This document shows positions 2,929 through 58,700 of a DNA stretch of 64,000 nt, piece after piece. The notes beneath the pieces are model-generated. The model saw only the letters and a list, made by a program, of their open reading frames with translations. It was not told where the DNA came from and searched no databases. The DNA comes from Corallococcus sp. AS-1-6 (GTDB lineage Bacteria; Myxococcota; Myxococcia; Myxococcales; Myxococcaceae), in contig NZ_JAIQDE010000002.1 of NCBI RefSeq assembly GCF_020037015.1, positions 496,001-560,000 on the forward strand, read 5' to 3'. The first letter of the stretch is position 1. Every line of letters begins with the position of its first letter. The translations under genes and the position numbers were made by a program.

Positions 2929-3038
2929 GGGAGCAGGGCGGGCGCGGCACTTGCGCAACGCGATACACACTCTAGGATCCCGGGTCCCACACAGGCCAGC
3001 ACTTGGCGTTGGAAGCGTCGGATAGGGAGAATCGCCGC

Positions 3039-4859
3039 ATGGCTCCGCCGAATCCGAAGCGTCCGCCGCGCCCTCCCCGCCCTCCCGGGCAGCAGGCGTC
3101 TTCGGACGACCCCTCGGAGGAGCTCCCGTTCGACGACGACGAGGTGGCGCCCCTGCAGGCGGATGATCCTCGCCCGCAGCGCGTGCCCCAGTATCCGGCG
3201 GGTCCCCGGAAGGCGAAGCGGCGGGGGCCGGGTGAGCGCAGCCGGTCCGACCGCGAGCTGACGCCCCGGTATGACTGGGCGATGGAGTATTCGGATCCGG
3301 GCCTGACGCCCGCGTTCGTGTACGTGGAGCGCGGGCCGGGCGCCGGGCAGCTCGTGCCCCTGCGCCAGGGCTCCATCACGCTGGGGCGGTCCTCCACGTC
3401 GGACCTGCGGCTCCAGCATGCGTCCATCAGCCGGCGCCATGCGCAACTGACCCGGCGGGGCAATGTCTTCATGGTGCGCGACCTGGGCAGCCAGAACGGC
3501 ACCTTCGTCAACCGCCTGCGCATCAAGGGCGAGGTGGAGATCAAGCCCGGGGATGAGCTGAGCCTGGGCAACGCGACCCTGCGGCTGCGCGGTCCGGGGG
3601 CCGGGCCGACGGCGAGCCGGACGTCGCTGGAGCCGCTGCTGTCTCGCACGGCGAAGCGACCGCTGAATGGCGTCGCCGTGGCGGTGGCCGCGGCGGTCGT
3701 GGGCTCCGCGGTCGCGGCGTTGATCAGCGTGGTGGCCATGCGGATGGGGGAGCGGGCTCCCGCGCGGACTCCAGCGGAGGGCGCGCCCACGAAGGCCCCT
3801 GGGACTCCGGCGGCGCCCGCGAACGACGCCCGGGAGACCGAGGCGGCGGCGTCCGCGAAGGAGGCGTCCATCGTCGGAGAGGAGGCGCCCGCGAAGGCCG
3901 CCTCGCCCAGCGCGACGGATGCGGCTCCTGACGTTCGTGAGCACGCCGCGTCTGGCGCTGGCGGAGCGACGAAGCTCAGCGCGGCGGATGTCGCTCGTGG
4001 CCTGCGTCCGGGCGCGCCGGCGACCGTGGACGGGACGACGGGCGCGGCGAAGGTCCTCAGCGCTTCGGACATCGCGCGACGGGTTCAGTCGGATCAGGTG
4101 TCCCCGAGCGCCTCGGACATCGCGCGACGGGTTCAATCGAGTCAGTCGTCTCCGAGCACCTTGGACACCGCTCGACGGGGTCAGTCGAGTCAGGCGTCCC
4201 CAAGTGCCTCGGACATCGCTCTCGGCGCGCACGCGAGCACGGGTGCGACGTCCAGGGACGCGGAGCCAGGAGCACGGGAGGTCGCGAAGGGCGCGGGGAC
4301 CGCGAATGCGGGTGAACCCCATCCAGACGCTTCGGGCAGGGGGATCGCTAAGACGGGCGAACCCCACCCGGACGCTTCGGGCGCGGGTCTCGTCATTGCC
4401 GCTTCCGGGCGGAAGGCCTTGTCCTCGGCCGAGCCGTCCGGGCCTCCGGACGAGCGCCAGCGCGCGGACATCCTCGCTCGCTATGAGTCCGGTGACGTCG
4501 CCGGAGCGTTGGCCCAGGCGAAGCGCGCGAACCTCACGCCCCTGGTGCAGCAGCTCACCCGCTTCCAGACCGCCGAGACCGCGGCCCGGACCGCCCTGGC
4601 GCAGCAGGACCGCACCCGGGCGATCGACGCACTCAGCGCCGCCGTGCGGGCGGACCAGGAGCTGTCCCAGGGATGGAGCCGCCAGGGAGTCGGACTCCGC
4701 CGCCAACTCGCCGGGCTGTATGTGCGCACGGGCCAGGACGCCGTTCGGGCTCAGCGCTTCGCCGACGCCCGAGCGGCTTTCACCGCCGCGCTCCAGCACG
4801 ACACCGACAACAGCGAGGCCCGCTCACAGCTCGCGGCGCTCGAAACGCAGGCGCCCTGA
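3039..4859 (+). CDS. FHA-domain membrane protein with 16-residue repeats and TPR-like tail
   Basis: The predicted protein has 606 residues. The N-terminus is Pro/Arg-rich. A clear FHA phosphothreonine-binding domain spans about residues 109-185 (ITLGRSSTSDLRL, SISRRHAQL, DLGSQNGTFVN). A single transmembrane segment (about 210-238) follows. An Ala/Glu-rich region contains four 16-residue repeats based on ASDIARRVQSSQSSPS (about 341-404), and the helical C-terminus resembles TPR units (about 475-605). The topology suggests a cytoplasmic phosphopeptide reader tethered to a periplasmic helical module; the partner kinase is unknown. The start is the ATG at 3039, preceded by AGGGAG at 9 nt; a TTG at 3003 in the same frame is less likely. 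The gene is divergent from cysS. Its stop is followed directly by palindrome array 1. Confidence 0.85.
   Translation: MAPPNPKRPPRPPRPPGQQASSDDPSEELPFDDDEVAPLQADDPRPQRVPQYPAGPRKAKRRGPGERSRSDRELTPRYDWAMEYSDPGLTPAFVYVERGPGAGQLVPLRQGSITLGRSSTSDLRLQHASISRRHAQLTRRGNVFMVRDLGSQNGTFVNRLRIKGEVEIKPGDELSLGNATLRLRGPGAGPTASRTSLEPLLSRTAKRPLNGVAVAVAAAVVGSAVAALISVVAMRMGERAPARTPAEGAPTKAPGTPAAPANDARETEAAASAKEASIVGEEAPAKAASPSATDAAPDVREHAASGAGGATKLSAADVARGLRPGAPATVDGTTGAAKVLSASDIARRVQSDQVSPSASDIARRVQSSQSSPSTLDTARRGQSSQASPSASDIALGAHASTGATSRDAEPGAREVAKGAGTANAGEPHPDASGRGIAKTGEPHPDASGAGLVIAASGRKALSSAEPSGPPDERQRADILARYESGDVAGALAQAKRANLTPLVQQLTRFQTAETAARTALAQQDRTRAIDALSAAVRADQELSQGWSRQGVGLRRQLAGLYVRTGQDAVRAQRFADARAAFTAALQHDTDNSEARSQLAALETQAP
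4060..4252 (+). repeat. 48-bp coding minisatellite (4 units)
   Basis: Four tandem 48-bp units lie inside the FHA gene. The anchor TCGGAC/TTGGAC recurs at 4065, 4113, 4161 and 4209. Being a multiple of three, each unit adds 16 residues without shifting frame. Confidence 0.8.
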
Positions 4860-4944: not shown

Positions 4945-5649
4945 GAAACCGACAGTCGGACAACTTTTCTGGGCTCGGCTGGGGCAGAGGCCATCCGGCC
5001 GCAGGCGTCCAAACTTGTCCGACAGTCGGACAACGCTTCTGGGCTCGGCTGGGGCGGAGGTCCTGGCCTTGAGGCTTCAAAACCTGTCTGACAGTCGGAC
5101 AGCTTTCTTGGGCTTGGCTGAGGCGGAGGCCCTCCGACCTCATGAGTCCAAACTTGTCCGACCGTCGGACAACTCTTCTGGGCCCGGCTGAGGCGGAGGT
5201 CCTGGCCTTGGTGGTCCAAAACCTGTCCAACTGTCGGACAACTCTTCTCGGCCCGGCTGAGGCGGAGGTCCTCCGGCACCTGGGGTCCAAACCTGTCCGA
5301 CCGTCGGACAACTTTTCTGGGCTCGGCTGAGGCGGAGGTCCTCCGGCATCTGGGGTCCAAACCTGTCCGACCGTCGGACAACTTTTCTGGGCTCGGCTGA
5401 GGTGGGGGCCCTCCGGCTGCAGGGGTCCAAACTTGTCCGACGGTCGGACAGGTTTCCGCTGCGCGTGGGCGGGAGCGCCCTGCGCCCTGAACTTGTCCGA
5501 CGGTCGGACAGGTTTTCTTGGCTCGGCCGGGGCGGAGGCCCTCGGGCTGCAGGCGCACAACTTGTCGGACTGTTGGACGGGTTTCCGCTGCTCGGGTGGC
5601 GGGGGCGCCTTCCGCCACGGCGCCCTGAACTTGTCCGACTGTCGGACAG
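4945..5649. repeat. Palindrome array 1: eleven 19-bp palindromes at 69-70 bp spacing
   Basis: This gene-free interval (4860-5785) holds a tandem array. Copies of TTGTCCGACNGTCGGACAA or CTGTCCGACNGTCGGACAG lie at 4945-4963 (degenerate left arm), 5015-5033, 5084-5102, 5154-5172, 5223-5241, 5293-5311, 5363-5381, 5433-5451, 5493-5511, 5562-5580 (degenerate) and 5631-5649. Start-to-start distances are 70, 69, 70, 69, 70, 70, 70, 60, 69 and 69. Central bases run A, A, A, C, T, C, C, G, G, T, T, so neighbouring copies tend to match. Spacers are related to each other (GGGCTCGGCTGAGGCGGAGG is typical). Some carry a smaller palindrome, GGAGGTCCTCC. The spacer family changes after copy 8. Because most steps are not multiples of three, the long open frames crossing the array are unlikely to be genes. 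Confidence 0.92.
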
Positions 5650-5785: not shown

Positions 5786-6280
5786 TCAGGCGAGGTTGAA
5801 GATCTTCTTCAGGTCGGACTCGACCTCTTCCTCGGAGCAGTCCTTGGCCAGCGACAGTTCCTTGATCAGCAGCGAGCGCGCCGTGTCCAGCATCTTGCGC
5901 TCACCGAACGACAGGTCCTTGTCACCCTTGAGCAGGTACAAGTCGCGGAGCACCTCGGCGATCTCGAAGACGGAGCCCGTCTTGATCTTCTCCATGTACT
6001 CGCGGTACCGGCGGTTCCACGTGGTGGAGTCGACGGAGATGTCCTTCTCGCGGAGGATGGAGTAGACCTGCTTGACGTCCTCCTCGCTGATGATCTCCCG
6101 GAGGCCGACCGACCCGACCTTGTTGATCGGGATCATGATCCGCATCCCGTTCTCCAGGATGCGCAGCACGTAGAACGACTGGCGCTGCCCGGCGACCTCG
6201 GTGTGCTCGATGCCCATCACCTCACCGACGCCCTGGCCCGGATAAACCGCCTTGTCACCAGTCTTGAAGCTGGTCTGCAC
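5786..6280 (-). CDS. cdnL: CdnL, CarD-family RNA-polymerase-binding transcription factor
   Basis: The 164-residue protein has the CarD_CdnL_TRCF fold. The N-terminal RNAP-beta-interacting Tudor-like part (residues 1-65) starts MQTSFKTGDKAVYPGQGVGE. The helical C-terminal DNA-interacting part (about 70-164) includes TTWNRRYREYMEKIKTGS. The sequence agrees with my memory of Myxococcus xanthus CdnL. That protein stabilises open promoter complexes at rRNA and other primary-sigma promoters and is essential; this is family knowledge, not seen here. It lacks the zinc-binding and HMGA-like C-terminal region of CarD itself, hence CdnL and not CarD. The start is a GTG at 6280, preceded by AAGGAGG (6287-6293) at 6 nt. 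It is divergent from comEC. Confidence 0.95.
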   Translation of the reverse strand: MQTSFKTGDKAVYPGQGVGEVMGIEHTEVAGQRQSFYVLRILENGMRIMIPINKVGSVGLREIISEEDVKQVYSILREKDISVDSTTWNRRYREYMEKIKTGSVFEIAEVLRDLYLLKGDKDLSFGERKMLDTARSLLIKELSLAKDCSEEEVESDLKKIFNLA

Positions 6281-6468: not shown

Positions 6469-8931
6469 GTGTTGGTTCGTTATTCGTGGCGCGACCTGGG
6501 TGCGCGTCCGTTGTTCTTTCCAGCGCTGAGCCTCTTGCTCGGCGCCCTTTGGCCAACCGGAACAGAGAGCTTCGCCGGGGTATTTCTCCTCTGCGCGCTT
6601 TGTCTGGGAGGGTTGGGCCTGGCGCTCGGCCCGTTGCCTGGAGCGCACCTGGCGGTGCTCGGCGCGCTGGCCCTGACGGGCGCGGGGCTCTCCGCCCTGG
6701 AGGCGCGGGTCGACATCCCGCCTGCCCTGAAGGAAGGCGGCGGCGCGGTCCTGGAAGGCGAGCTGGAGCGCGTGGAGCGCTTCGATGGAGCCTTGAGGCT
6801 GCGGCTCGCGGTGGCCCGCGCGGGGCCCGTTCCAGGGCCTCCGACCGCCGCCCGCTTTCGCGTCAGCCTTTCAGGGCGGGGTGAAGGTCTGGAATTGCAC
6901 CCCGGCCAGCGCGTGCGCCTGGAAGCGCGGCTCGTGCCGGATGCGCCTCCTTCGAATCCTGGCGAGCGGGACTTCTCGTCGGCGCGGCGGCGGCAGGGCG
7001 TGGCCTTCACGGGCGGGTTCGTTCCGGGGCGCCTGCTGGCGCTGTCCCCTGCCCCCTCGTGGAGACTCGCGCTGGCGGACGTGCGCGGGCGGCTGACGAC
7101 GGCGGTGCACGGGGTGGCGCCCTCAGCGGACGCGGCGGCGCTGTTCCTCACGCTGGCCGCCGGGCAGCGCGCGGACCTGGACGCCTCTTGGGAGGACGCG
7201 TTCTCGCGGGCAGGACTCGCGCATGTGCTCAGCGTCAGCGGGCTTCACGTGGCGGCGCTCGCGCTGATGACGCTCGCGCTGCTCAGGCGGGGGCTGGTGC
7301 GGCTGGGCGGACGCTGGCGGACGCTGGAGGCGCGGCGGTGGGCTGCTCCAGCGGCGGTGCCCTTCGTCTGGGCCTACGTGCTCTTCACGGGGAACCAGGC
7401 GCCCGCGGTGCGCTCGGCGGTGATGGCGTCAGCGGTGCTGCTGGGCCTGTCGCTGTGGCGGCGCGCGGATGGGCTGAATGGCCTGTCGCTGGCGGCGCTG
7501 GTGCTCGTGGCCTGGGCGCCTTCCAGTGTCGTGGACCTGTCCCTGCGGCTGTCGTTCCTCGCGGTGCTGGGGCTGGTGCTCCTGTCGCCCGCGCTGCGCG
7601 AGGCCCTGCCCCTGGAGCGGCCGGCTCCCTCCGAGCCCCGGCGGCTGAAGCGGTGGGCCGCCGAGGCGCGTGAGACCGTGGCGCAGACGCTGTGCGCGAG
7701 CGGCGCGGCGACGCTCATCGGGCTGCCCGTGGTGGCGGCGGCGTTCGGCCGGGTGAGCCTGGCGGGGCTCGTGTCCAACATCGTCGCCCTGCCCCTCTGC
7801 GGGCTGCTCACCGGGCTCGCGGCGGGCGGCGCGGCCCTCTTCGTGGTGGCGCCAGTCGTGGCGACGCCGGTGCTGTGGGCGGGGGCCTGGGCGTCGGAGC
7901 TCCTGCTCGTGTTGACGCGGGGCTTCGCGGCCGTGCCCTTCGCGGCGGTGGAGGTGCCGGGCCTGGGGCCGTGGCTTGGCGGGGTCTACGCGCTGGGGCT
8001 GGGCGCCTGGGCCCTGGGTTCGGGCCGCTGGCGATGGCTGGGCCTGCTCGTTCCGGGGGCCGTGCTGGGCGCGCTGCTGCTGCCCGTGCTCGCGCCGGAG
8101 CCCGCGCTGCGGATCACCTTCCTCTCCGTGGGCCAGGGGGACGCGGTGGTGCTGCGCTCGCGGGGACATCACGCGCTGGTGGATGCGGGCGGCGTTCCGG
8201 AGGGCGCGGATACCGGGGAGCGGTTCGTCCTGCCCTTCCTCAAGGCCGAGGGCGTGTCGCGGCTGGACCTCGCGGTGCTCTCCCATCCGCATCCGGACCA
8301 TGCGCTCGGGCTCGTGTCGACGCTGGCCCAGGTGCCCACCGCACGGCTGTGGCTCTCCGCGGGGAGCGCGGACGGGCCGCTGTCCCGGCGGATCATCTCC
8401 GCAGCGAAGGGCGCCACGGTGGAGGAGGTGGAGGTGGGGCGCCCCGCGTACGTCCTGGGAGAGGCGACGCTGGAGGTGCTGGGGCCGCCCTTGGACCGGG
8501 AGCTGATGGAGGGCGCCAACGACCGGAGCGTGGTGCTGCGCGTGCGCCATGGAGACGTCACGGTGCTGCTGGCGGGCGACGTGGAGGCGGAGGGCGAGGC
8601 CGCGCTCGAGGCGTCACTGGGCCCGATGACGGTGTTGAAGGTGCCGCACCATGGCTCGCGCACGTCGTCCACCGCGCCGCTCCTGGAGCGCACCCGGCCA
8701 CGTCACGCGGTGTTCTGCGTGGGCCGGCGCAACCGCTACGGGTTCCCCCATCCGGAGGTGGAGGCGCGCTACCGGGCCCTGGGCACCGAGTGCTGGCGCA
8801 CCGACCGCGATGGGGCCATCACCCTGGAGAGCGATGGCGAGGACGTCCGGCTGGTGTCCTTCCTGCCGCGCGTGGATTCCGCGCCCCTCCCCGTTGCCGG
8901 GAGTGGGGAGCAGGCCCAGCTTGAGCGGTGA
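6469..8931 (+). CDS. comEC: ComEC/Rec2-type DNA-uptake channel protein
   Basis: This is an inner-membrane competence protein thought to carry single-stranded transforming DNA into the cytoplasm. The predicted protein has 820 residues, a typical length. The N-terminus has transmembrane segments and an OB-like soluble section. The multi-pass Competence domain spans about residues 200-480 ([16 protein letters not shown] near its start). A C-terminal metallo-beta-lactamase-like domain (about 545-800) retains SHPHPDHALG, LLAGDVE and VPHHGSRTS, so the hydrolase metal ligands appear intact. The proposed start is the GTG at 6469, with TTG at 6472 as an alternative; the upstream sequence is G-rich without a textbook ribosome site. 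The next gene overlaps its stop codon. Confidence 0.92.
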   Translation: MLVRYSWRDLGARPLFFPALSLLLGALWPTGTESFAGVFLLCALCLGGLGLALGPLPGAHLAVLGALALTGAGLSALEARVDIPPALKEGGGAVLEGELERVERFDGALRLRLAVARAGPVPGPPTAARFRVSLSGRGEGLELHPGQRVRLEARLVPDAPPSNPGERDFSSARRRQGVAFTGGFVPGRLLALSPAPSWRLALADVRGRLTTAVHGVAPSADAAALFLTLAAGQRADLDASWEDAFSRAGLAHVLSVSGLHVAALALMTLALLRRGLVRLGGRWRTLEARRWAAPAAVPFVWAYVLFTGNQAPAVRSAVMASAVLLGLSLWRRADGLNGLSLAALVLVAWAPSSVVDLSLRLSFLAVLGLVLLSPALREALPLERPAPSEPRRLKRWAAEARETVAQTLCASGAATLIGLPVVAAAFGRVSLAGLVSNIVALPLCGLLTGLAAGGAALFVVAPVVATPVLWAGAWASELLLVLTRGFAAVPFAAVEVPGLGPWLGGVYALGLGAWALGSGRWRWLGLLVPGAVLGALLLPVLAPEPALRITFLSVGQGDAVVLRSRGHHALVDAGGVPEGADTGERFVLPFLKAEGVSRLDLAVLSHPHPDHALGLVSTLAQVPTARLWLSAGSADGPLSRRIISAAKGATVEEVEVGRPAYVLGEATLEVLGPPLDRELMEGANDRSVVLRVRHGDVTVLLAGDVEAEGEAALEASLGPMTVLKVPHHGSRTSSTAPLLERTRPRHAVFCVGRRNRYGFPHPEVEARYRALGTECWRTDRDGAITLESDGEDVRLVSFLPRVDSAPLPVAGSGEQAQLER

Positions 8932-9191
8932 TGATCTCCGACGACCTGGATCTCCGGCAGCTCACCGCCCAACTCAAGGCCCGGCTGGGACCGGGAGAGC
9001 CCGTGGGCTACCTGCGCGGCAAGTCCCTCATGCGCGACCTGCTGCTCGACATGAGGGACAACCGGTTCTCCGAGCTGGAGGCCGAGGAGCTCGTCGACAC
9101 GCTGGAGGCCCGGGGCTTCGTGCGCTTCCTGGGCGACCCGGCGGAGCGGTCCGTGGCGGACGCGCCGTGGGACATCTCGCCCCACGCCTGA
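8931..9191 (+). CDS. Small conserved-type acidic protein coupled to comEC
   Basis: This 86-residue protein starts at an ATG that shares one base with the comEC stop (TGATG), so it is probably translationally coupled. It is soluble, acidic and helical, with LRGKSLMRDLLLDMRDNRFS followed by the Leu-rich stretch ELEAEELVDTLEARGFVRFL. No signal peptide or transmembrane segment is seen. Family and function are not recognised. The coupling and GC3-rich codons make it a likely real gene. It could be a regulatory or folding partner of ComEC, but that is inference from position only. Confidence 0.7.
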   Translation: MISDDLDLRQLTAQLKARLGPGEPVGYLRGKSLMRDLLLDMRDNRFSELEAEELVDTLEARGFVRFLGDPAERSVADAPWDISPHA

Positions 9192-21920: not shown

Positions 21921-22057
21921 GCTCCTTTCTGCGCATTCCCACACCCTGGCCCGTTGTCCGCTCGCCTGCCGCCCTCGGAACCCGGGAAGTCCAAGGCGGC
22001 GAGCCTTTCTGCCCGACCCGGGACACCCCGGTTCCGGCTGGAGGCGCCCGGAGCGCT

Positions 22058-22084
22058 GAACCTGTCCGACAGCCGGACAGGTTC
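22058..22084. repeat. Solo palindrome of the array family
   Basis: The core CTGTCCGACAGCCGGACAG (22062-22080) is extended by GAAC/GTTC flanks to a 27-bp near-perfect palindrome. It lies 137 bp upstream of the chosen addB start. It is followed within about 20 bp by a coding-like fragment. Confidence 0.85.
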
Positions 22085-22101
22085 CGGAACGCCGCCGCAG
22101 C

Positions 22102-22365
22102 GCATTCGAGGTACGCATCCCGGAGACCTTCGTCGTCAACAGCAACAGCAGCGTGGCCATCCCCCATGCGGCCCGAGCGAGCTTCGGCATCACCCTGTTC
22201 GTGGGGCCGATGGTCCACCCGGAGATTGAGGCCGGTCCGCGGAGCCCCTTCCTCCGCGAGCACTCCCTGGAACGCGGCGCGCCGTGGCGGATGGGGTCCC
22301 AGGCCCGGCGAACCCTGCCCGAGGTGACGGCCCCGGGCGGGCGACTTCCTGGCTCGGCTCTTTGA
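22102..22365 (+). pseudogene. Orphan coding-like fragment without a start
   Basis: Reading + strand from 22102 gives AFEVRIPETFVVNSNSSVAI followed by PHAARASFGITLFVGPMVHP, ending at a stop at 22365. Third-codon positions in the first two thirds are almost all G or C, as in the real genes here, and the peptide looks like a beta-strand-rich C-terminal piece. There is no plausible start or ribosome site, and the frame begins about 20 bp after the solo palindrome. I do not recognise the family. It may be the 3' end of a gene whose front was lost, or chance. Confidence 0.4.
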
Positions 22366-22431
22366 AGAGGACGGGGCCGGGGACGTTGAGCACACGACAC
22401 CTGGATTGCGGGAAAAGGGTGGAGCGCCCTT

Positions 22432-23340
22432 ATGCTTCGCCGCCCCATGCTTCCTTCCTATCGGACCCTCGCCACCTTCTGTCTGCTCCTGCTGGCGCCG
22501 CTGTCCCCCGCCGCCGCGCAGGACACCTCCGATGCTCCGCGCGCGCTGCGCTTCAACTGGACCCGCGACGGCATCATCACCGGCGCCGCGGGGGTGCTGT
22601 GGATCTCCAGCGAGACGGTGTTCAAGGACGACCTGGCCCCGGCGCAGTGCCGCTGGTGCGACCGCGCTCCTGACGGCACCGACCGGCTCAACCGCCTGGA
22701 CCGCTGGGGCCGAGGCATCGCGGGCAGCACGGAAGCGTCCCGCAAGCGCGCGGACACCTGGAGCAACATCATCGGGTTCGCGGGCATGCCGCTGGCCATC
22801 CTGGGCACCCAGTACGCCGTGGGGCACAGCAGCGGCGCCTCCGCGGAGTTCTTCGCCCAGGACGCCACCATCATGGTGCAGAGCGCCGTCCTCGCCTCCG
22901 TCGCGAACCAGGCGGTGAAGTTCGCCGTGGGCCGCGAGCGGCCATTCGTCCACGTCCTCCCGGAGGAGGAAAGGGGCCTCACCGCGCACCCCAACGACAA
23001 CAACCTGTCCTTCTACAGCGGTCACACGAACCTGGCCTTCTCCCTGGCCGTGTCCGCCGGCACCGTCGCCTCGATGCGCGGTTACAAGCACCAGGCCGTC
23101 ATCTGGGGCGTGGGCCTGCCGCTCGCCGCCTCCGTGGGCCTCTTGCGCATGGGCGCGGACAAGCACTACCTCTCCGACGTGCTCACGGGCGCCGTGATGG
23201 GCACCGCGTTCGGTGTCGCGGTGCCCCTGCTGATGCACGGCCGCGTGGATGACACGAAGCCCACCACCGCTCGAGCGTCCTCGGTGTCACTCAACCCGAT
23301 GGTCGGGACCCAGATGGTGGGCCTGTCCGGCGCCTTCTAG
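22432..23340 (+). CDS. Exported PAP2-family phosphatase
   Basis: The predicted protein is 302 residues. A signal peptide (LATFCLLLLAPLSPAAA, cut after AQ) is followed by a PAP2/type 2 phosphatidic-acid-phosphatase domain. The three catalytic blocks are KFAVGRERP, FYSGHTNLAF (catalytic His) and GADKHYLSDVLTGA (nucleophile His plus Asp). Substrates in this family include phosphatidate, undecaprenyl pyrophosphate and lipid A phosphate; which one applies here is unknown. The ATG at 22432 has GGTGGAG at 7 nt; ATG 22447 is an alternative. The 511-bp space before it holds the solo palindrome and the orphan fragment, with no convincing promoter. Confidence 0.88.
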   Translation: MLRRPMLPSYRTLATFCLLLLAPLSPAAAQDTSDAPRALRFNWTRDGIITGAAGVLWISSETVFKDDLAPAQCRWCDRAPDGTDRLNRLDRWGRGIAGSTEASRKRADTWSNIIGFAGMPLAILGTQYAVGHSSGASAEFFAQDATIMVQSAVLASVANQAVKFAVGRERPFVHVLPEEERGLTAHPNDNNLSFYSGHTNLAFSLAVSAGTVASMRGYKHQAVIWGVGLPLAASVGLLRMGADKHYLSDVLTGAVMGTAFGVAVPLLMHGRVDDTKPTTARASSVSLNPMVGTQMVGLSGAF

Positions 23341-23445
23341 CCACGCACCGCCAGGAGTTCGCGAACACATCCTGAGCGGCAGCAAGGCCCGAACAGGTGC
23401 GACCGCCGGAGCAAGCGCGCCACGTCAGAACGCCACTGGAGCGCC

Positions 23446-24927
23446 TCATGCCGGAGGGCCTGGGGGATGGGCAGAGCAACACCACAAGCGCACGGTCCAG
23501 CGCGCCAGGGAAGCCCAGGGGCCCATGAAGCGCCTCGCCCAAGCTGCGAAACGCTCCACTGAGGATTCAGCGGGAACCCGCGGGAGGAACCTCGGGATGC
23601 GGAGGCCACCCTCCTGAGGCGAAGCACCAAAACCTGTCTGACTGTCTGACAGACTTCCCCAAGCCGCCCCCATCACATCCTGCCCCGCGCACTCTCCACC
23701 TGCCCCACCGGAGCCAGTGACCGGGGCGGCTGAAGACCGCGACTGCGCGCCGTCCGTCTCTACACCGAGGGTCTGAACATCGAAGCAAGGTGCAAGTCCA
23801 AGCGGCTCGGTTTCCTCTGCGATGGGCGCGACGCAGCAGGAGCCATGAGCCTCAACGCTTGGGAATACCTCCGGCGTCTCATCCAACGCGTTGGTAGGCG
23901 AGGGAACGCGGATACCATGACTCTCCGCGCCCGGACGTGCCTCCAACGAACCATCTTGCGCAGAGGCTGACGCGAAACTGTCGGCGCCACGAACCTCGGC
24001 GCATGCGCATGCCTCCAGCGCTTCGTCTTGCGCGGCGGTGCCGGATGCACGCACCTCGACACAGGGGCAATTCATCAGAGCAACAGCCCCCGCAGTGGGT
24101 GACGCGGAATCGCAGGCGCCAAGTTCCTCGATGCCAGGGCGTAGACCGCTGACCGGTGCGGGCGCACCGAAAAGGTTCTCCTGAGCGGATGGCACCTCGG
24201 TGGACGTAGGTGACTGGGGAGCAGGAGCAAAGGCATTCAGCACGAGTTCATCACAAGCCTTCATCAGCGCCGGAAGCTCGTGCTGAAGCGCCCGCACGTC
24301 GCGCTCGTGCAGGATTGCCATCGCACGAGAGGCCCACGCGCGCAGCGCGGCTCCGCCCAAGAGCGGCAGCAGTTTGGCTGCGCCTCCCATGAAGGCCCGT
24401 TGCAGGGACTGGACGAGGAGCACATGCCCGGGCCGCTCCGCCACGCGTGCCGCCTCCCGAAGCAACTCGAACTCCGCCTGGGCGCACGTTGTCCCCGACT
24501 CCCAGCGCGCCGCGTCCTGGAGCCGGAAGCACGCGCTCCCCAGCCGGTCCAGGTCTCGGTCCGAAGCCTTCGCACAGCAGTCGACCAGCAGCTCCACCAG
24601 CACCTGCCGCTTGAGGCTGAAGTAGCCCTCCAGCAGCCACCGGGCCTGCGGGGAGCGCGCGTCATGCAGCGCCAGCCCCAGGTTCTCCAGCGTCAGCGAT
24701 TCATCCAGGGCCACCGCGCGAGTCTTTCGCCCGGGGCGCTGCACCACCAGCCCCCGCGCCGCCAGCCGACGCAGCGCCTCGCGGATGGTGCCCCGGCACA
24801 CCTCATAGCGACGCGCCAGCTTCGCTTCGGAGCCAAACTGCCCGCTCGGGTGCAGCCGTCCCAGCGCGATATCGCGCTCGATTTGCGCTTCCACATACGC
24901 CACGAGTCCTCGCCTCTCCATCCCCAT
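23446..24927 (-). CDS. GntR-family (FadR type) regulator with a long repetitive C-terminal tail
   Basis: Residues 1-70 form a GntR winged helix (IERDIALGRLHPSGQFGSEA, RRYEVCRGTIREALRRLAAR, VVQRPGRKTRAV). Residues about 80-235 resemble the all-helical FadR/FCD effector domain. The FCD metal-binding His positions are not evident (FELLREAA in place of FH), so a FadR-like organic ligand is more likely than a metal-chelated acid. From about residue 260 to 493 the sequence is Ala/Glu/Pro-rich, with roughly five 24-residue degenerate repeats (EALEACACAEVR, GSLEARPGAESH, ETPEVFPSVEAH). It then crosses a palindrome of the array family. Normal family members are about 230-260 residues, so the tail is exceptional. 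ATG 24921 fits the GAGGAGG site better than 24927. Confidence 0.72.
   Translation of the reverse strand: MGMERRGLVAYVEAQIERDIALGRLHPSGQFGSEAKLARRYEVCRGTIREALRRLAARGLVVQRPGRKTRAVALDESLTLENLGLALHDARSPQARWLLEGYFSLKRQVLVELLVDCCAKASDRDLDRLGSACFRLQDAARWESGTTCAQAEFELLREAARVAERPGHVLLVQSLQRAFMGGAAKLLPLLGGAALRAWASRAMAILHERDVRALQHELPALMKACDELVLNAFAPAPQSPTSTEVPSAQENLFGAPAPVSGLRPGIEELGACDSASPTAGAVALMNCPCVEVRASGTAAQDEALEACACAEVRGADSFASASAQDGSLEARPGAESHGIRVPSPTNALDETPEVFPSVEAHGSCCVAPIAEETEPLGLAPCFDVQTLGVETDGAQSRSSAAPVTGSGGAGGECAGQDVMGAAWGSLSDSQTGFGASPQEGGLRIPRFLPRVPAESSVERFAAWARRFMGPWASLARWTVRLWCCSAHPPGPPA
23634..23652. repeat. Palindrome of the array family inside the GntR coding sequence
   Basis: CTGTCTGACTGTCTGACAG carries a matching C-to-T change in both half-sites: TGTCTGAC to the left of the centre and GTCTGACA to the right. 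It lies in the 3' part of the GntR-family gene and encodes part of the tail (SLSDSQTG). Confidence 0.75.
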
Positions 24928-25044
24928 CCCCCTCCTCGTTTCAGCATCGCCATCCCACCACAGGGGTCTGACATGGACGTGCGGGGCCCACCCTCCACGT
25001 CGCTTGCCTGGGGAGCGCGCCCCCGGGCGGCGGGCGGCGCAAAC

Positions 25045-25978
25045 CTGTCCGACTGTCGGACAAGCAGACCGTCCTCATCGCCCGCTGGGCTGCGGTCCGG
25101 GGGGCATGGGGCGAAAATCTGTCCGACAGTCGGACAGGTTTTGAGGCAACCGGGTCCGCGCGGGCGCCTCTGTCCGTGCCCCCACCGCGGTGTCGACGCA
25201 CGCACGACCTCGTTCACCTTCTGGGTTGGTGCGGCCTCGGGTCCATGCTGCGAGAACCTGTCCGACTGTCGGACAGATTTGAAGCAACGAGGCCCTGGCG
25301 GGTGGGGCCCTATCCCCGCTCCAGCTTGGTGTTCGCGAGCACGCGAACTCGAGACCCGGCCGGTCCTGCGCAGCCTCGGGTCCATGCGGCGAAAACCTGT
25401 CCGACAGTCGGACAGGTTTTGAGGCAACCGGGCCCGGTCGGGCTCCTCGGTTCATGGCCCTCTCTTGGTACCGCACACGCACGACATCACACGCCTCCCA
25501 GTCAAACGCGGCCTCGTTCGCCTTGCGGTGGAAAGCGGTCCGACAGTCGGACAGGTTTTGGGGCAACCAGGCCCGCGCGGGCGCCTCGGTTCATGGCCTA
25601 CCTTGGTACCCGCGCACGCACGACGTCATACGCCTCCCAGTCAAGCGCGGCCTCTCGCCCTGGGCGGTGGGAACGGGTCCGAGTGTCGGAGATGTCTTGG
25701 AGGCACCGGGACGATGCGGGCTCCGCTGCTCTTGGACCCAACGTCGTGCCCTTGCATGGACGACGTTGCGCTCCGCGAGACGTGCGTCCCCCACTTCGTG
25801 CGGTGCGAACCGCTCTGACAGTTGGACAGGCTCTTGGAAGACTGGCTCGGGCGGGTGCTTCTGCTCGAGGCTCCAACTTCGTGCCCATGCATGCACGACG
25901 TTGCCGTTCGTCGCTGCGCTCCTCGGGGCATGTGCCATCGGGCTTCGCTCGGTGCGAGCTGGTCCGACTGTCGGACAG
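25045..25978. repeat. Palindrome array 2: eight palindromes, mostly 139 bp apart
   Basis: This gene-free stretch (24928-26000) holds palindromes at 25045-25063, 25119-25137, 25258-25276, 25397-25415, 25536-25554, 25675-25693 (degenerate), 25811-25829 (degenerate) and 25960-25978. Steps are 74, 139, 139, 139, 139, 136 and 149. The copy centred on 25406 is a perfect 29-bp palindrome (25392-25420), because A4C and G-T4 flanks extend the core. Units share text such as GAGGCAACCGGGCCCG and CGCCTCCCAGTCAA. Near the middle of several units lies a second inverted repeat: 25331-25348 (GTTCGCG/CGCGAAC), 25739-25768 (CAACGTCGT/ACGACGTTG) and 25874-25903 (CAACTTCGTGC/GCACGACGTTG). Open frames through the region are not considered genes. 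Confidence 0.9.
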
Positions 25979-26000
25979 GTTTGCGTAAGCCGGGCCCGGG

Positions 26001-26790
26001 CGCGAGAGCCTCCAGAAGCTGCCGGCGATGGAGGACGTGGAGGTGGAGTGCGTCGCCACCGCGCGCGACGCGCTCCAGCGCCTGCGCGAGTTCACCTTCG
26101 ACTGCATGGGGATGGACCTGCACCTGCCGGACTTGAGCGGCCAGGACCTCCTGGAGCGCATGGCCGCCGAGGAGGCCGTCTCCTTCCCTCCCGTCATCGT
26201 CTACACCGGCCACGCGCTCAGCCTCGACGAGGAGCATCCGCTGCGCCGCTTCTCACGCTCCATCATCAAGGGCGTGCGCTCCCCGGAGCGGCTTCTGGAC
26301 GAGGTGACGTTGTTCCTGCACCAGGTGGAGTCGCGCCTGCCGCCGGAGCACTCGCGCATGCTCCAGGCCGCGCGTGACCGCGAGTCCACGCTGGAGGGCC
26401 GCCGCATCCTCGTGGTGGAGGACGACGTGCTGAACATCTTCGCCCTCTCCCGTGAGCTGGAGCCCCGGGGCGCGAAGGTGGAGATCGCCCGCAACGGCAA
26501 GGAGGCCCTGGCCCTCTTGACGAAGAGCCTGGCCCTGCCCAGCTCTCCGTGGACCTGGTGCTGATGGACATCATGAGGCCGGAGATGGACGGACTCACCG
26601 CCACACGCGAAATCCGCAAGCACGAGGCCTGGCGCAAGCTGCCCATCATCGCGCTCACCGCGAAGGCCCTGCGCGACGACCAGGAGAGGTGCCTCCAGGC
26701 TGGCGCCAATGACTCCATCGCCAAGCCGCTCGACGTGGAGAAGCTGCTGTCGCTCCTGCGCGTCTGGATGCCCAAGGGGTGGGGCCGCGC
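26001..26790 (+). pseudogene. Remnant of a hybrid histidine kinase: truncated receiver plus frameshifted receiver
   Basis: The remnant begins in the middle of a receiver domain (RESLQKLPAMEDVEVE, then FTFDCMGMDLHLPDLSGQDL), without the first beta strand and acidic pocket. After a linker (GVRSPERLLDEVTLFLHQVE) comes a second receiver, RRILVVEDDVLNIFALSREL. Its frame breaks near 26540 by what looks like a one-base loss and resumes as VDLVLMDIMRPEMDGLTA to LLSLLRVWMPK. In related myxobacterial proteins these receivers end a long GAF/HisKA kinase placed before cheR. Here everything upstream is missing and array 2 repeat sequence runs up to about 26000. Not expected to be functional. Confidence 0.8.
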
Positions 26791-27613
26791 ATGCTCGACG
26801 TGGCGACGAAGGAGTTCGACATCGAGCCGCGGCTGCTGCTCGTAGCGCTCTACCTGAAATACCACTACGACTTCCGCGGCTACGCGGAGTCCTCCCTCAA
26901 TCGCCGGCTGGCCCAGGCCGCCGAGCGCTTCGACCGCGCCCCCCTGTCCCAGCTCCAGGACCGGATGCTTCACGAACCCTCGCTGCTGGATTTCCTCACC
27001 GTGCAGGTGAGCGAGCTGTTTCGCAACCCGTCCTACTTCCGCAACCTGCGCGAGCACGTGGTGCCGGTGCTGCGCACCTCCCCGTCGCTCAAGGTGTGGG
27101 TCGCCGGATGCAGCACGGGGGAAGAGGCCTGGTCGCTCGCCATCCTGCCGCGCGAGGAGGGGCTCCTGGAGCGCACGCTCATCTACGCCACGGACATCAA
27201 CCCCAGCGCGCGGAGGCCGGCGTGTACGCGGTGGGCCGCATCGCTTCCTTCACCCAGAACCACCGGCTGTCCGGCGCGCGCACGTCTCTGCCGGACTCCT
27301 GCACGGCCGTGTACGGCGGCGCGGTGTTCGACCGCTCGCTCAGGGGGCGCATCGTCCTCTCGGGCCACGGCCTGGCCACCGACAGCGTCTTCGCGGCGGT
27401 ACTGCTCCTGTCGTGCCGCAATGTGCTCAGCTCCTTCAACCGCGAGCTGCAGGAGCGCGCGCTGGGGTTGTTCGCGGAGTCGCTCTGTCACAAGGGGTTC
27501 CTGGGCCTGGGTGCGCGCGAGTCGCTGCGCCTCTCCTCGCACGAGGCCTCGTTCACCCCGTCGTCCCCGAGGTCCGGCTCTACCAGAAGCGCCAAGGAAA
27601 GGACGCAACCGCC
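26791..27613 (+). pseudogene. cheR: Frameshifted CheR-type protein methyltransferase
   Basis: The N-terminal part is clear in one frame: LLLVALYLKYHYDFRGYAES, QVSELFRNPSYFRNLREHVV, then the SAM-binding VWVAGCSTGEEAWSLAIL and IYATDINPSA. Homology jumps frame near 27215 (EAGVYAVGRIASFTQNHRLS, then SCRNVLSSFNRELQERALGL) and again near 27557 (VVPEVRLYQKR). Both jumps correspond to one missing base. The final frame has no stop before the CheB start. CheR enzymes methylate glutamates of chemoreceptors; this copy cannot make a full enzyme unless the shifts are sequencing errors. Confidence 0.82.
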
Positions 27614-28228
27614 ATGCCCACCGCGCGCTCCGCTCCGCCCGCTGGCCGCGTCGACGCCATCGTCATTGGCGCGTCCGCGGGAGGGGTGGGTGCCCTGAAG
27701 CACCTGCTGCCCGCGCTGCCCTCGGACTTCCGGCCCGCGGTCCTCGTGGTCCTGCACCTGCCCCGCGGCCTCCCCAGCCTGCTGCCAGAGGTCTTCACCC
27801 CACGGTGCGCGCTGCCGGTGCACGAGGCGGGGGACAAGCAGCCCATCCAGCCGGGGACCGTCTCCTTCGCGGCCCCGAACCACCACCTGCTCGTGGACCG
27901 GGACGCGAAGGGGCCCCTGCTCGCGCTGTCCATGGACGCCCCCGTCCACTTCTCCCGGCCCGCCATCGATGTGCTCTTCGAATCCGCCGCCGCGGTCTAT
28001 GGCGCGCGCCTGGGCGGCGTCATCCTTTCGGGCGCCAACGCGGACGGGGCGCTGGGACTCCAGGCGGTGAGACGGCGGGGCGGCGTCACCCTGGTGCAGG
28101 CGCCCGACACCGCTCGCTCGCCCACCATGCCCCAGGCGGCGCTCGCGGCTGGAGCGGTGGTCTTCGTGCTGCCTCTTGAACAGATGCCCGCCGTCATCCG
28201 GGCATGGGGAGATGGCGGTGCTATCTGA
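27614..28228 (+). CDS. cheB: CheB-type methylesterase, catalytic domain only
   Basis: The predicted protein is 204 residues and consists only of the CheB esterase domain, with no receiver. The catalytic triad is visible: Ser in VIGASAGGVGAL, His in VVLHLPRGLPSLLPEVF and Asp in SGANADGALGLQAV. Free-standing CheB domains occur in atypical chemosensory-like systems together with CheR and hybrid kinases, matching this neighbourhood. The frame is intact although its upstream partners are damaged. The ATG at 27614 follows AAGGAAAGGA. Its stop overlaps the next gene by 17 nt, so the two are probably translated together. Confidence 0.85.
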   Translation: MPTARSAPPAGRVDAIVIGASAGGVGALKHLLPALPSDFRPAVLVVLHLPRGLPSLLPEVFTPRCALPVHEAGDKQPIQPGTVSFAAPNHHLLVDRDAKGPLLALSMDAPVHFSRPAIDVLFESAAAVYGARLGGVILSGANADGALGLQAVRRRGGVTLVQAPDTARSPTMPQAALAAGAVVFVLPLEQMPAVIRAWGDGGAI

Positions 28229-29375
28229 CCTGTCCGTCCTCAGCAAGGAGCCCCTGCCCGTGGCCTCCCGGGTGAAGTGCCTGCTCGTCGATGACCTGGA
28301 GGAGAACCTCCTGTCGCTCTCCGCCGTGCTGCGGCGTGACGACGTGGAGGTGCACTGCGCCCGCTCCGGCGCGGAGGCGCTGGAGTTGCTGCTCCTGCAT
28401 GAGTTCGCGCTCGCGCTCGTGGACGTGCAGATGCCGGAGATGGACGGCTTCGAGCTGGCGGAGCTGATGCGCGGCTCCGAGCGCACCCGCGACGTGCCCA
28501 TCATCTTCGTCACCACGGGCGGGGGCGACCCCTGGCGCACCTTCAAGGGCTACGAGGCCGGCGCGGTGGACTTCCTCGACAAGCCGCTGGAGGCCCACGC
28601 GCTGCGCGCCAAGGCGGAGGTCTTCTTCCAGATGCACCGCCAGAAGCAGCAGTTGGCGCAGCAGTTGGACACGCTCGCGGAGACCCTGCGACTCAACGAG
28701 ATGTTCACCGCGGTGCTGGGCCACGACTTGAGAAACCCCCTCTCCGCCATCCTCACCGCGGCGGACCTGCTCCAGCGCCGCTCGGACGATGAGGCCGTGA
28801 AGCGGACGGCCACGCGGATGATGGCCGCCGGCAAGCGCATGGGCCGGATGATTGAAGACGTGCTGGACCTGGCGCGCGCGCGGCTGGCGGGCGGGATTCC
28901 GCTGCGCCGGGGGGAGACGGACTTCGGGCAGTTGGTGCAGCGCATGGTGCAGGAGCACCAGACGGCCTGGCCCCGCCACCGCATCGAGGTGCGGCAGGAC
29001 GGCGACCTCGTGGGGGACTGGGACGCGGACCGGCTGGCGCAGGTGGCCTCCAACCTCATCGGCAACGCGCTCCAGCACGGCGACGCCGCGGAGCCGGTGC
29101 GCATCACCGTGGACGGCACGCGCGACGACGCCCTGCGCTTCACCGTCACCAACGTGGGCGTCATCCCCGCCCACCTCCTGCCCTTCCTCTTCGACCCGTT
29201 CCGGGGCGGCCAGCAGCGCCGGGGCCGGGGAGAGGGGCTGGGCCTGGGGCTCTTCATCGTCCAGCAGATCATCCACGCGCATCAGGGCGGCGTGGAGGTG
29301 CTCTCCGGCGCCGGGCCCTACACGGAGTTCCGCGTGGAGCTGCCGCGCAAGGGCCTGGAGGTCGTCAGGCTGTAG
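28212..29375 (+). CDS. Response-regulator/histidine-kinase fusion
   Basis: The predicted protein is 387 residues. An N-terminal receiver (about 17-140; KCLLVDDLEENLLSLSAVL, phospho-Asp in LALVDVQMPEMDG) is followed by a short coiled linker, HisKA (about 160-230; LGHDLRNPLSAIL) and HATPase_c (about 270-380; ASNLIGNALQHGD, GLGLGLFIVQQI). The first ATP-binding box (VTNVGVIP) lacks the usual DxGxG, so activity may be reduced. It is cytoplasmic. Its gene overlaps the CheB gene and appears to be the last member of the chemosensory-like cluster. Its stop overlaps the converging metallophosphoesterase gene by 11 bp. Confidence 0.85.
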   Translation: MAVLSDLSVLSKEPLPVASRVKCLLVDDLEENLLSLSAVLRRDDVEVHCARSGAEALELLLLHEFALALVDVQMPEMDGFELAELMRGSERTRDVPIIFVTTGGGDPWRTFKGYEAGAVDFLDKPLEAHALRAKAEVFFQMHRQKQQLAQQLDTLAETLRLNEMFTAVLGHDLRNPLSAILTAADLLQRRSDDEAVKRTATRMMAAGKRMGRMIEDVLDLARARLAGGIPLRRGETDFGQLVQRMVQEHQTAWPRHRIEVRQDGDLVGDWDADRLAQVASNLIGNALQHGDAAEPVRITVDGTRDDALRFTVTNVGVIPAHLLPFLFDPFRGGQQRRGRGEGLGLGLFIVQQIIHAHQGGVEVLSGAGPYTEFRVELPRKGLEVVRL

Positions 29376-55716: not shown

Positions 55717-58700
55717 TTAGCGTCGCCTGCGGCATGGGACCCGGAGCGTCTGGAGTTCCCCGGTTACAGGTCGGACGTTGTAGGTCTCGATACCCCGAGG
55801 TGCACGCTTTCCCGGGCAGGTGTACTGGACGCGAAGCGGGCCGGGAGCCAGGGCGACCACCTGGTTGATGGGCAGCTTTCCGCCCCCCGGCCGGCCGAGC
55901 ACGGTGCGCGCCGGGGCGTCGAAGCGGACCTCCACGGTGGCGGGGGGTGGGGGCTCGGCCGGGGTCGCCGTCTCCACGGGCGGAGGGGCCGCGGCATCGG
56001 TGCCCGCGGCGGCCAGCGTGAGTCCCGCGTCCAACGGGCTCGCGGAGGTGTCCGCGAGGGCGGGTGCTACGGGCTGCCGCGCGGAGGTGTCCGCGAGGGT
56101 GGGCTCCGCGGGCTGCCGCGCGGCGGAGTCCGCGAGGGTGGGTTCAGCGGGCTTCGGCGGCGCGGACTCGGCCGGAACAGGAGCGGGTGGCGAGGGCGCC
56201 TTCACGGGGGCGGTTCCCTGGGGACCGGGCCGCGCCGGGCCTCCCACCGGAGGCCCCTTCATGGGCGCGGGAGGAGCCTGCGCTTCCGGACCGAAGAGGC
56301 CCATCATCCACGCGAGCCCCAGGGCCAGCACGGCCACGAGCGCCACACCCGCGACCACCACCAGGGTGCGCGAGCGCCGGGGCGAACGGGAGGCGTCGAG
56401 CGTGTCGGGACCCTCGTCGTCGTAGGCCTCGTCCTCGTCGACGGGGGCGCGCACGGCCCGCCGGGGCGGCGGCCTTCGCGGCGCCTGGAACCCGACGGTG
56501 GACTCGTCGTCGTCCGGGTCCCCGGTCGTGACGGGCGTCGGGTCCGTGAGGCTTATCCCGGAGGGTCCGGGGTCGGTGTTGAAGCGTTCGTCGTCCTCGG
56601 GTGACGGCCGCGGAGGCGGGCGGACATTGCGAGCCCCCGGAGTTCCGGACGGGGCCGAACGGTTCGCGTCGCTGGAAGCGGAGGCGCCCCGACGCGGGCC
56701 CGGAGGCTGCGACACGCGGCCATCGTCCCCCATGCGCCGGGGACCGGAGGCCAGCGGATCAGACCGGCCATCGTCCCCCATGCGCCGAGGACCGGAGGCC
56801 ACCGGGTCGGAGCGGCCGTCGTCGCCCATGCGGCGAGGACTGGAGGACAAGGGCTCGGAGCGGCCATCGTCCCCCATGCGCCGAGGACCGGAGGCCACCG
56901 GGTCGGAGCGGCCGTCGTCGCCCATGCGGCGAGGACTGGAGGACAAGGGCTCGGAGCGGCCGTCGTCGCCCATGCGCCGGGGACCCGACGCCAGCGGATC
57001 AGACCGGCCATCGTCCCCCATGCGCCGGGGACCGGAGGCCAGCGGATCAGACCGGCCGTCGTTGGCGGACGCCATGCCCGACCGGCGCGGACCCGGTGGC
57101 GGCGTCGTAGCGCGTCCCTCTGGTGTGCGACGCGGTGCGGGCGCGAACGGATCATCCCCGGCGCCCGCCCCGCGAGGCATGGCCACGCCAGAGGACGGAC
57201 GCCGCGAACGGTCTCCCCCACCCCGCTCGCCCGAAGGCCCGGAGCGCGCGGTCACCTCCGGAGGGCCGCGCCGCGCCGGTGCGGGCGTGGGCGCGACGGG
57301 CCGGGGACGGCGCGCGCGCAGCGGCACTGTGGAGTCACCCTCGTCGTCGTCCTCCTCCGCCTCCTCCTCGTCCCAGGCCTCCGCCTCGAACACAGGCTCC
57401 AGGTGGCGGCGCGGCGAGGGAGCACCGGGCATCGTCCCGACCGCGGTGGACTCGCCGTCATCGTCGTCGTCGCCCAAGGGCAGGTCGCGCGGACGCGCCA
57501 TCTGCGTCTCCGGCTCCCCTTCCTCCGCGTCCCAGGCACGCAGCGCCGCGGCCTCCGCCGTGGGCCTGCGCGCGGGAGGCCGGGCCACCAGCCCCACGGG
57601 CGTCAGCGCCGAGGGCCCCCGCGGCGACGACGCCGTCCCGCCCAGCGGCAGGGTGCGCGCGCCCGTGTCCTCGTCCAGCGGAGACGTGCGCGACGATGTG
57701 TCCTCCGTGAGCGGCAGCGTGCGCGCGGCGGTGTCCTCCGCGTCGGCCAGGGGCAGCGTGCGCGCGGCGGTGTCCTCCGGCAGGGCGGGCACCGGAGGCG
57801 GCAGCGGCGTGCGCAGGGGCGGCAGCGGCAGGGTCGCTTCGTGCCGGCCCGCGCGCTTCGCCGGGGGGATGTGGAGCACCGTGCGCTCCTCCTTCTCCCC
57901 TAGCAGCCGCGCGATGTACTGCGCCACGTCAAGGCTCTGCCGGAGCACGCCGGACGCCAGGAACGCCTCCAGGTCGTCACGCACGTCGGAGGCCCGCTGG
58001 TAGCGCTGGGTGCGGTCCTTCACCAGACACCGCATCACGATGCGCGACAGCGCCTCCGGGTAGTCCGGGCGCACCAGGTGCGGCGGAGGCGGCTCCTCGT
58101 AGCGGATGGCGTAGAGGATGCCTTCCGTGGTGGCGCGGTGGAACGGCTGCTTGCCGGTGGTGATTTCGTAGAGCATCACCCCCAGCGCGTAGATGTCCGC
58201 CCGGTGGTCCAGCCGCTCCTGGAGGATCTGCTCGGGGGAGAGGTAGAGGAACTTCCCCTTGATGACGCCCGGCTTGCTGCGCTCCATGAACGCGCCGGCC
58301 TTGGCGATGCCGAAGTCGACGAGCTTCACGCGCCCGTCGTACGAAATCATCACGTTCTGCGGAGAGACGTCCCGGTGGATCAGCTCCAGCGGGCGCCCAT
58401 CCACGCCCCGGCTGAAGTGCGCGTGGTCCAGGCCCGCGGCGATGGCCGCGCAGATCTTCGCCGCGACCCCGTACGGCATGGAGGCGCCGAACTTGAACTC
58501 CTCCGCGAGCACGCGGCGCAGGTCCACGCCCTCCACGTACTCCATGCAGATGAAGATGTTGTCCCCCTCCTTCCCCAGCTCGTGCACCTGCACGATGTTG
58601 GGGTGGTGGAGCTGGGCGGCGATGCGCGCCTCGTCCAGGAACATCTGGACGAACTCCGGCTCCTCGGAGAGGTACGGGAGGATCCGCTTGATGACCACCA

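Follow-up and report, generated by a model that had tools for sequence, protein, structure and literature searches.

A palindrome array beside one copy of a multi-copy GntR-family regulator gene in Corallococcus: a candidate operator array

Introduction

REP and BIME elements with their RAYT genes are short palindromes located at the 3' ends of genes, single or clustered, with an associated gene that carries the palindrome upstream and, in part, in its tail. The repeats described here are alike in these features, whereas their associated gene is a multi-copy GntR-type regulator and Corallococcus is without the RAYT-type (Y1) transposase in 16 of 16 genomes. RMX and RXX are repetitive elements of Myxococcus xanthus, and on their general description alone they can be set beside the Corallococcus palindrome as repetitive DNA in a myxobacterium. 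FadR-type regulators of the GntR family, for which one account of the subfamily gives the operator consensus GTM-N0-1-KAC (PMC4494728), combine a GntR winged helix-turn-helix with a helical second domain and have boxes of this form upstream of their own gene, as is also seen at our locus, where the helical domain is a predicted one. What sets our locus apart from them is the number of gene matches (12 in the genome under study, hereafter the own genome, and 49 in genome G038), a variable protein tail, and a candidate operator that is a paired box in a tandem array beginning 119 bp upstream of the gene. The account of NanR in PMC8012715 likewise places dimers of a GntR-family protein on repeated boxes, the (GGTATA)3 repeat operator, which is one operator with close repeats, as opposed to the dispersed palindrome arrays found here.

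In this study we analyzed a stretch of 64,000 nucleotides from Corallococcus sp. AS-1-6 (the window), which holds a tandem array of palindromes next to a regulator gene, here called gntR, together with related loci in other genomes (genomes and loci are cited by their G and L numbers). The array does belong to a family that unites a regulator gene and a palindrome, and open-licence PMC papers, as far as we searched them, do not describe the palindrome, its array or the expansion of gntR.

Results and discussion

The core of the palindrome, GTCCGACNGTCGGAC, reads GTCCGAC-N-GTCGGAC, and eight copies, six exact and two imperfect, make up the array, with core-to-core spacings of 74, 139, 139, 139, 139, 136 and 149 bp (Table 1). 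The first-pass annotation had described eight palindromes at these spacings, one of them extended to a perfect 29-bp palindrome, and all of its coordinates, including those of the 29-bp copy, agree with the sequence. Allowing up to 3 mismatches, the window holds 24 cores, compared with a mean of 9.83 and a maximum of 19 in 100 shuffles. A defence protein was considered and rejected, as PADLOC gave no match up to E 0.1. Besides the sister array listed in Table 1, the window has one palindrome with 1 mismatch at 22064-22078, near position 22100, where G060, G067 and G068 carry a further array (L120:2845-3544; L122:2767-3291), and separate 48-bp tandem repeats at 4059-4219 and 56716-57062.

Table 1. 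Coordinates of the features in the 64,000-nucleotide window
Feature	Position	Strand	Remarks
Sister array, ~70-bp period	4947..5647	.	between convergent FHA-domain (3003-4859) and CarD-like (5786-6280, minus) genes; no adjoining gntR
GntR-family regulator gene (P0001)	23446..24927	-	493 aa; winged helix-turn-helix, helical domain, variable tail
Palindrome in gntR tail	23636..23650	.	GTCTGACTGTCTGAC, 2 core mismatches
Winged helix-turn-helix (Pfam GntR)	24721..24894	-	residues 12-69; PF00392, 46.9 bits, cut-off 27
Conserved GTC-A-GAC box	24966..24972	-	45 bp upstream of gntR start, within highly conserved promoter-like block
Tandem palindrome array	25045..25978	.	eight palindromes, 139-bp main period
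Palindrome 1	25047..25061	.	exact core; 119 bp upstream of gntR start
Palindrome 2	25121..25135	.	exact
Palindrome 3	25260..25274	.	exact
Midpoint inverted repeat	25331..25348	.	GTTCGCG/CGCGAAC
Palindrome 4	25392..25420	.	perfect 29-bp palindrome; core 25399-25413 exact
Palindrome 5	25538..25552	.	exact
Palindrome 6	25677..25691	.	2 mismatches
Midpoint inverted repeat	25739..25768	.	CAACGTCGT/ACGACGTTG
Palindrome 7	25813..25827	.	3 mismatches
Midpoint inverted repeat	25874..25903	.	CAACTTCGTGC/GCACGACGTTG
Palindrome 8	25962..25976	.	exact
Response-regulator gene remnant	26000..26561	+	homology to 11/15 other Corallococcus genomes begins exactly at 26000
Natural position-4 variants of the 25-bp palindrome			GTCGGACAGTCGGAC, GTCCGACTGTCCGAC

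An inverted repeat about midway along the 139-bp unit had also been proposed to alternate with the main palindrome, as a second kind of symmetric site. The three midpoint inverted repeats named for it exist, its right arm GCACGAC, said to recur at the same phase in most other units, is present in exact form near the midpoint in 4 of the 6 window units, and related arrays (L033, L073, L053, L120) do have another conserved element close to the midpoint, a mainly asymmetric motif with the consensus CACCTTGGTGTCCGCGCACGCACGACGTCGCG. The symmetry itself has little support as a general feature. Strong midpoint inverted repeats are confined to single units (three in the window), and the midpoint dyad is the best of its unit, ties allowed, in 3/6 window units and in 6/22 units of four related arrays. 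Across 28 units from seven other arrays the mean dyad score at phase 70 was 6.39 of 12, versus 5.81 (sd 0.42) for all phases, which is 1.4 sd above the all-phase mean and lower than the scores at phases 27-30 and 36-38. The first-pass annotation had stated that the secondary symmetry would be due to chance if other copies of the repeat family had no inverted repeat at the midpoint, and by this standard the proposal of two alternating kinds of symmetric site largely fails; we read the midpoint motif as a conserved stretch within the 139-bp spacer, and not as a second general operator. Since several sister arrays have units of 69-72 bp, we also examined the 139-bp unit as a dimer of two 70-bp units, an idea that was rejected: the halves are unlike, the score of the consensus is equalled or exceeded in 118 of 1000 shuffles, and 1 of 34 units has a score reached by at most 10 of 200 shuffles.

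The neighbouring gntR gene, which the first-pass annotation leaves unmentioned, is transcribed away from the array, and its product carries the N-terminal winged helix-turn-helix of the GntR family, with a Pfam score above the cut-off (Table 1). No match to the FCD Pfam domain was obtained in the regulator at E <= 1; in an AF2 model (mean pLDDT 80.2, pTM 0.63) the second domain is predicted to be helical, and the best Foldseek matches of the model are GntR/FadR/NanR structures at ~1e-6, with TM values of ~0.3-0.5 and large rmsd. Pairwise dN/dS between the window gene and 12 others lies at 0.07-0.35, and its third-position GC drops from ~0.8 in the first half to 0.64-0.65 in the tail, compared with mostly >0.9 in other genes of the window. 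The closest named relatives of the gene are from Corallococcus. The 12 matches in the own genome include contig-end pieces, and nine of the own-genome loci that we fetched carry gntR, in addition to an end piece in L056.

The gene and the palindrome are associated. A palindrome with at most 2 mismatches lies 85-130 bp upstream (actual range 89-124 bp) of all 48 distinct Corallococcus-type gntR genes, a set defined by the helix REALRRLAARG among those fetched loci whose flank measures 200 bp or more, with identical genes merged, and a GTC-N-GAC box is found 35-60 bp upstream in 47 of them. Earlier, partly overlapping counts of the upstream palindrome gave 16/16, 31/31 (leaving aside L161, which has only ~120 bp upstream before a contig end) and 9/9 genes. 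Outside Corallococcus, the core was detected within 200 bp of one of 8 distinct gntR genes (L099, at 168 bp, with 2 mismatches), and four of the 8 have the box at 35-60 bp. The conserved block around the window's box, CCATGTCAGACCCCTGTGGTTGGATGG (24945-24975), has the form TGTCA, 11 nt, T...AT, which may resemble a RecA-independent DNA-damage (PafBC-type) promoter. Helical phasing between the palindrome and the -45 box was considered and dropped, as the distances, ~55 to 85 bp, have no consistent phase.

Each arm of the palindrome is itself GTC-N-GAC, giving two boxes 8 bp apart, and this motif, of which the palindrome holds two copies and the -45 box one, fits the FadR-subfamily consensus as given in PMC4494728. 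The centre base of the box, which is position 4 from the palindrome centre, varies with no sign of compensation: of 372 distinct contexts, 280 are paired at this position, compared with 282.9 expected under independence, G-G or C-C is found in 22/145 loci, and the double change occurs as G-C in 1 locus and as T-A in 2 contexts. Such uncompensated variation favours a protein reading of the boxes, and speaks against the view that Corallococcus requires a perfect hairpin. Our preferred reading, of modest confidence, is that a FadR-like GntR-family gene with many copies has, upstream of this one copy, the array as its control region, that is, an operator array, whose binding by the regulator we infer. 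The fixed palindrome upstream of a multicopy regulator suggests that the two work and spread together. Counting against an operator, two dimers placed 8 bp apart would be crowded.

The own genome (9.5 Mb, 82 contigs) contains 132 exact cores, with 0 in a backward control, and a 17-bp form of the palindrome is present in 16/16 Corallococcus genomes, at 3 to 137 copies. Across these 16 genomes the number of gntR genes, tallied at E <= 1e-10 with contig-end pieces included, correlates with the number of palindromes (rho 0.83, p 7e-5, kinship ignored). In a phylum sample, 25 of 195 genomes carry the 15-bp core, namely all 16 Corallococcus, 5 of 6 members of genus g8, and G131 (10), G153, G157 and G085 (1 each). 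Genus g8 is taken here to be Archangium, on account of a named Archangium record with the gene and the same palindrome type (L186), and genus g24, presumably Myxococcus, has the core in one genome alone (G153), once. Among 58 genomes of the family, all 8 that have at least 5 copies of ACCTGTCN{5,11}GACAGGT also have gntR (E <= 1e-20), and the 46 genomes without gntR at this threshold have at most 2 copies; the pattern is absent from 4 of the 12 gntR genomes (G007, G012, G044, G051), of which G007, G044 and G051 contain cores whose arms differ (12, 4 and 19, respectively). Two observations weigh against the operator reading: G012 has a gntR-like gene (2e-32) with neither palindrome form, and two genomes with palindromes, G031 with 6 cores and G037 with 12, have no gntR at E <= 1e-20. 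Further gntR matches occur in G038 (49, of which several are 3' fragments), G053 (17), G003 (5) and G014 (3); the exact core is absent from these four genomes, and a looser palindrome is found 25, 5, 7 and 43 times, respectively, partly inside gntR.

Most palindromes stand away from gntR, and those that occur singly are located for the most part at the 3' ends of genes and not at promoters, which also goes against an operator. Their contexts were read from codon-position heuristic gene calls, which replaced a first, crude calling. Of 44 Archangium sites, 18 lie between convergent genes, with 19 codirectional, 6 divergent and 1 at an edge, compared with 2/35/28 (convergent/codirectional/divergent) among the other intergenic gaps of the same loci; the 50 sites in G051, 19 of which are common to both counts, divide into 23, 23, 3 and 1 at an edge, with a control of 2/59/28. 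Most of these sites are located ~20-140 bp past a stop codon. The 12 single copies of the own genome comprise 4 convergent, 6 codirectional and 1 divergent, with 1 inside a called gene. Palindromes thus occupy the intergenic space at gene 3' ends, as REP elements do, at the Archangium sites and at most own single copies, but not in the gntR-linked arrays. Furthermore, 56 sites in G051 match one 25-mer with at most 3 mismatches; subfamily variants occur among them, and the 50 sites that were read have flanks conserved to about +-33. The element subfamilies in this genome (L188-L206, L228-L258) extend over ~65-90 bp around the 25-bp palindrome; they have outer CCGG arms at +-27-30, and most of them are situated at the 3' end of a gene.

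These contexts are what would be expected if the palindrome were a REP-like dispersed repeat or a bidirectional 3'-end hairpin (terminator or mRNA end) that spreads by itself and with which gntR hitchhikes, an account that we regard as possible, though clearly short of probable. The palindrome does form a perfect hairpin (-18.7 kcal/mol), and position 8 of the Archangium arm covaries (43/44 paired, with 14 double and 0 one-sided changes), which is hairpin-like and counts against an operator; neither the 3'-end positions nor the covariation in Archangium favours the operator reading. Left unexplained by a self-spreading repeat are the near-fixed place upstream of 48/48 gntR genes and the copy-number link, and it is further opposed by the uncompensated position 4. 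Nor is there a convergent excess among the own arrays without gntR (n=20; 3 convergent, 13 codirectional, 0 divergent, 3 edge, 1 inside; control 3/12/6) or the six palindromes of G031 (2 inside, 2 edge, 1 divergent, 1 codirectional). Terminator-like sites with a GC stem and a T run number 0 in 24800-26100 (shuffle mean 0.7), and Rfam covariance models gave 0 matches in 22000-28500 up to E 1. A strand-specific RNA hairpin in Archangium was rejected, as the imperfect pairs at codirectional G051 sites, read on the transcribed strand, are 15 G-U versus 15 others and so show no preference for G-U. Taken together, the position at gene 3' ends and the Archangium covariation indicate that the palindrome may have started as a REP-like 3'-end repeat.

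The history of the locus bears on how gene and palindrome spread. In G060, gntR and array form a 3.24-kb stretch that is missing from G039 and G047 at the window locus, and G031, G054 and G068 are without both this stretch and the neighbouring response-regulator gene. Compared with G060, the window is without ~2.8 kb between array and response-regulator gene, so that the array abuts the gene at 26000; the response-regulator/CheB region (26000-28225) has its 5' end cut off by the array. By eye, the same-locus array in G067 ends at an apparent IS3-type orfA start (L121, around 8860-9050). The gntR gene at the window locus is 87% identical to the same-locus copy in G060 versus 97% to its best own-genome relative, and is nearer to own-genome copies than to the same-locus copy of two other species. 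In a first tree, six own copies group together (99/96), as do the copies of G060 and G067 (99/90), and the 10 copies of C. interemptor make up one clade (100/100); in a larger tree the own group of six is retained (93/98) and the G060 copies form no single resolved group, with own copies L059, L070 and L075 outside the own group in both. These groupings and identities imply that gntR copies have been partly homogenised within genomes, or replaced. A more far-reaching reading is a regulator-based selfish system, in which a GntR-type protein without a transposase of its own and the paired-box palindrome would multiply together, the protein's binding would protect or drive the spread and homogenisation of dispersed gene copies (concerted evolution), and palindromes would come to rest at the 3' ends of genes and expand into arrays; we consider such a system rather unlikely.

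We are more doubtful still of a mobile palindrome-gntR-palindrome unit, moved by an unknown enzyme that would recognise the palindromes as its ends, with arrays as by-products. The discrete 3.24-kb insertion and the many, partly fragmentary gntR matches in G038 are in line with it, as is the palindrome that lies upstream of gntR and, in part of the copies, also in the gene tail. An exact 25-mer palindrome was found in the tail of 1/16 genes of a first gene set and 5/37 of a second (two of the five, L094 and L152, look like one gene), and with at most 1 mismatch in 8/37; conversely, 22/37 tails have no match within 4 mismatches. The unit shared by the nine G038 copies that were read (L127-L135) begins mostly ~60-95 bp upstream of the start codon, without a palindrome, and the single locus whose junctions were read shows no target duplication. 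In self-comparisons, no additional gene is shared beside the copies among the matches listed, and in a transposase search that covered Y1 alone, PF01797 had 0/16 Corallococcus genomes positive (control positive in 5/14), by which RAYT was rejected. The tail palindrome codes NLSDCRTG, and one G014 copy of gntR has a similar palindrome in a different codon phase, a weak hint of a role at the DNA level.

Finally, an ordinary minisatellite, i.e. chance tandem duplication of a spacer that holds a palindrome, agrees with the 139-bp repeat called by Tandem Repeats Finder and with unit sequences that differ between array families, but is very improbable, given that the same palindrome recurs in differing units (39, 57, 70, 72, 83, 92, 120, 139 and 150 bp, mostly constant within an array) in ~50 clusters among the own-genome places listed, and that palindromes are 85% identical between the six window units versus 59% for spacers. 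The same spacer identity is at odds with a CRISPR array, where identical repeats are separated by unrelated spacers.

Conclusions

Under the operator reading, dimers of the regulator would bind the palindrome at its two GTC-N-GAC boxes, which stand 8 bp apart, and the further box near the promoter would be bound as well, placing the gene family under its own control. Unequal recombination could then let the palindrome grow in tandem into a platform of many sites, and the other arrays and single copies may serve as further targets, or as decoys, for one pool of regulator.

What we describe is a dispersed palindrome family of predatory myxobacteria that is tied to one expanding regulator gene family. 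If the binding is true, a many-copy transcription factor would face up to ~150 exact sites per genome, and the system would offer a natural experiment on operator titration and on the joint multiplication of a regulator and its sites.
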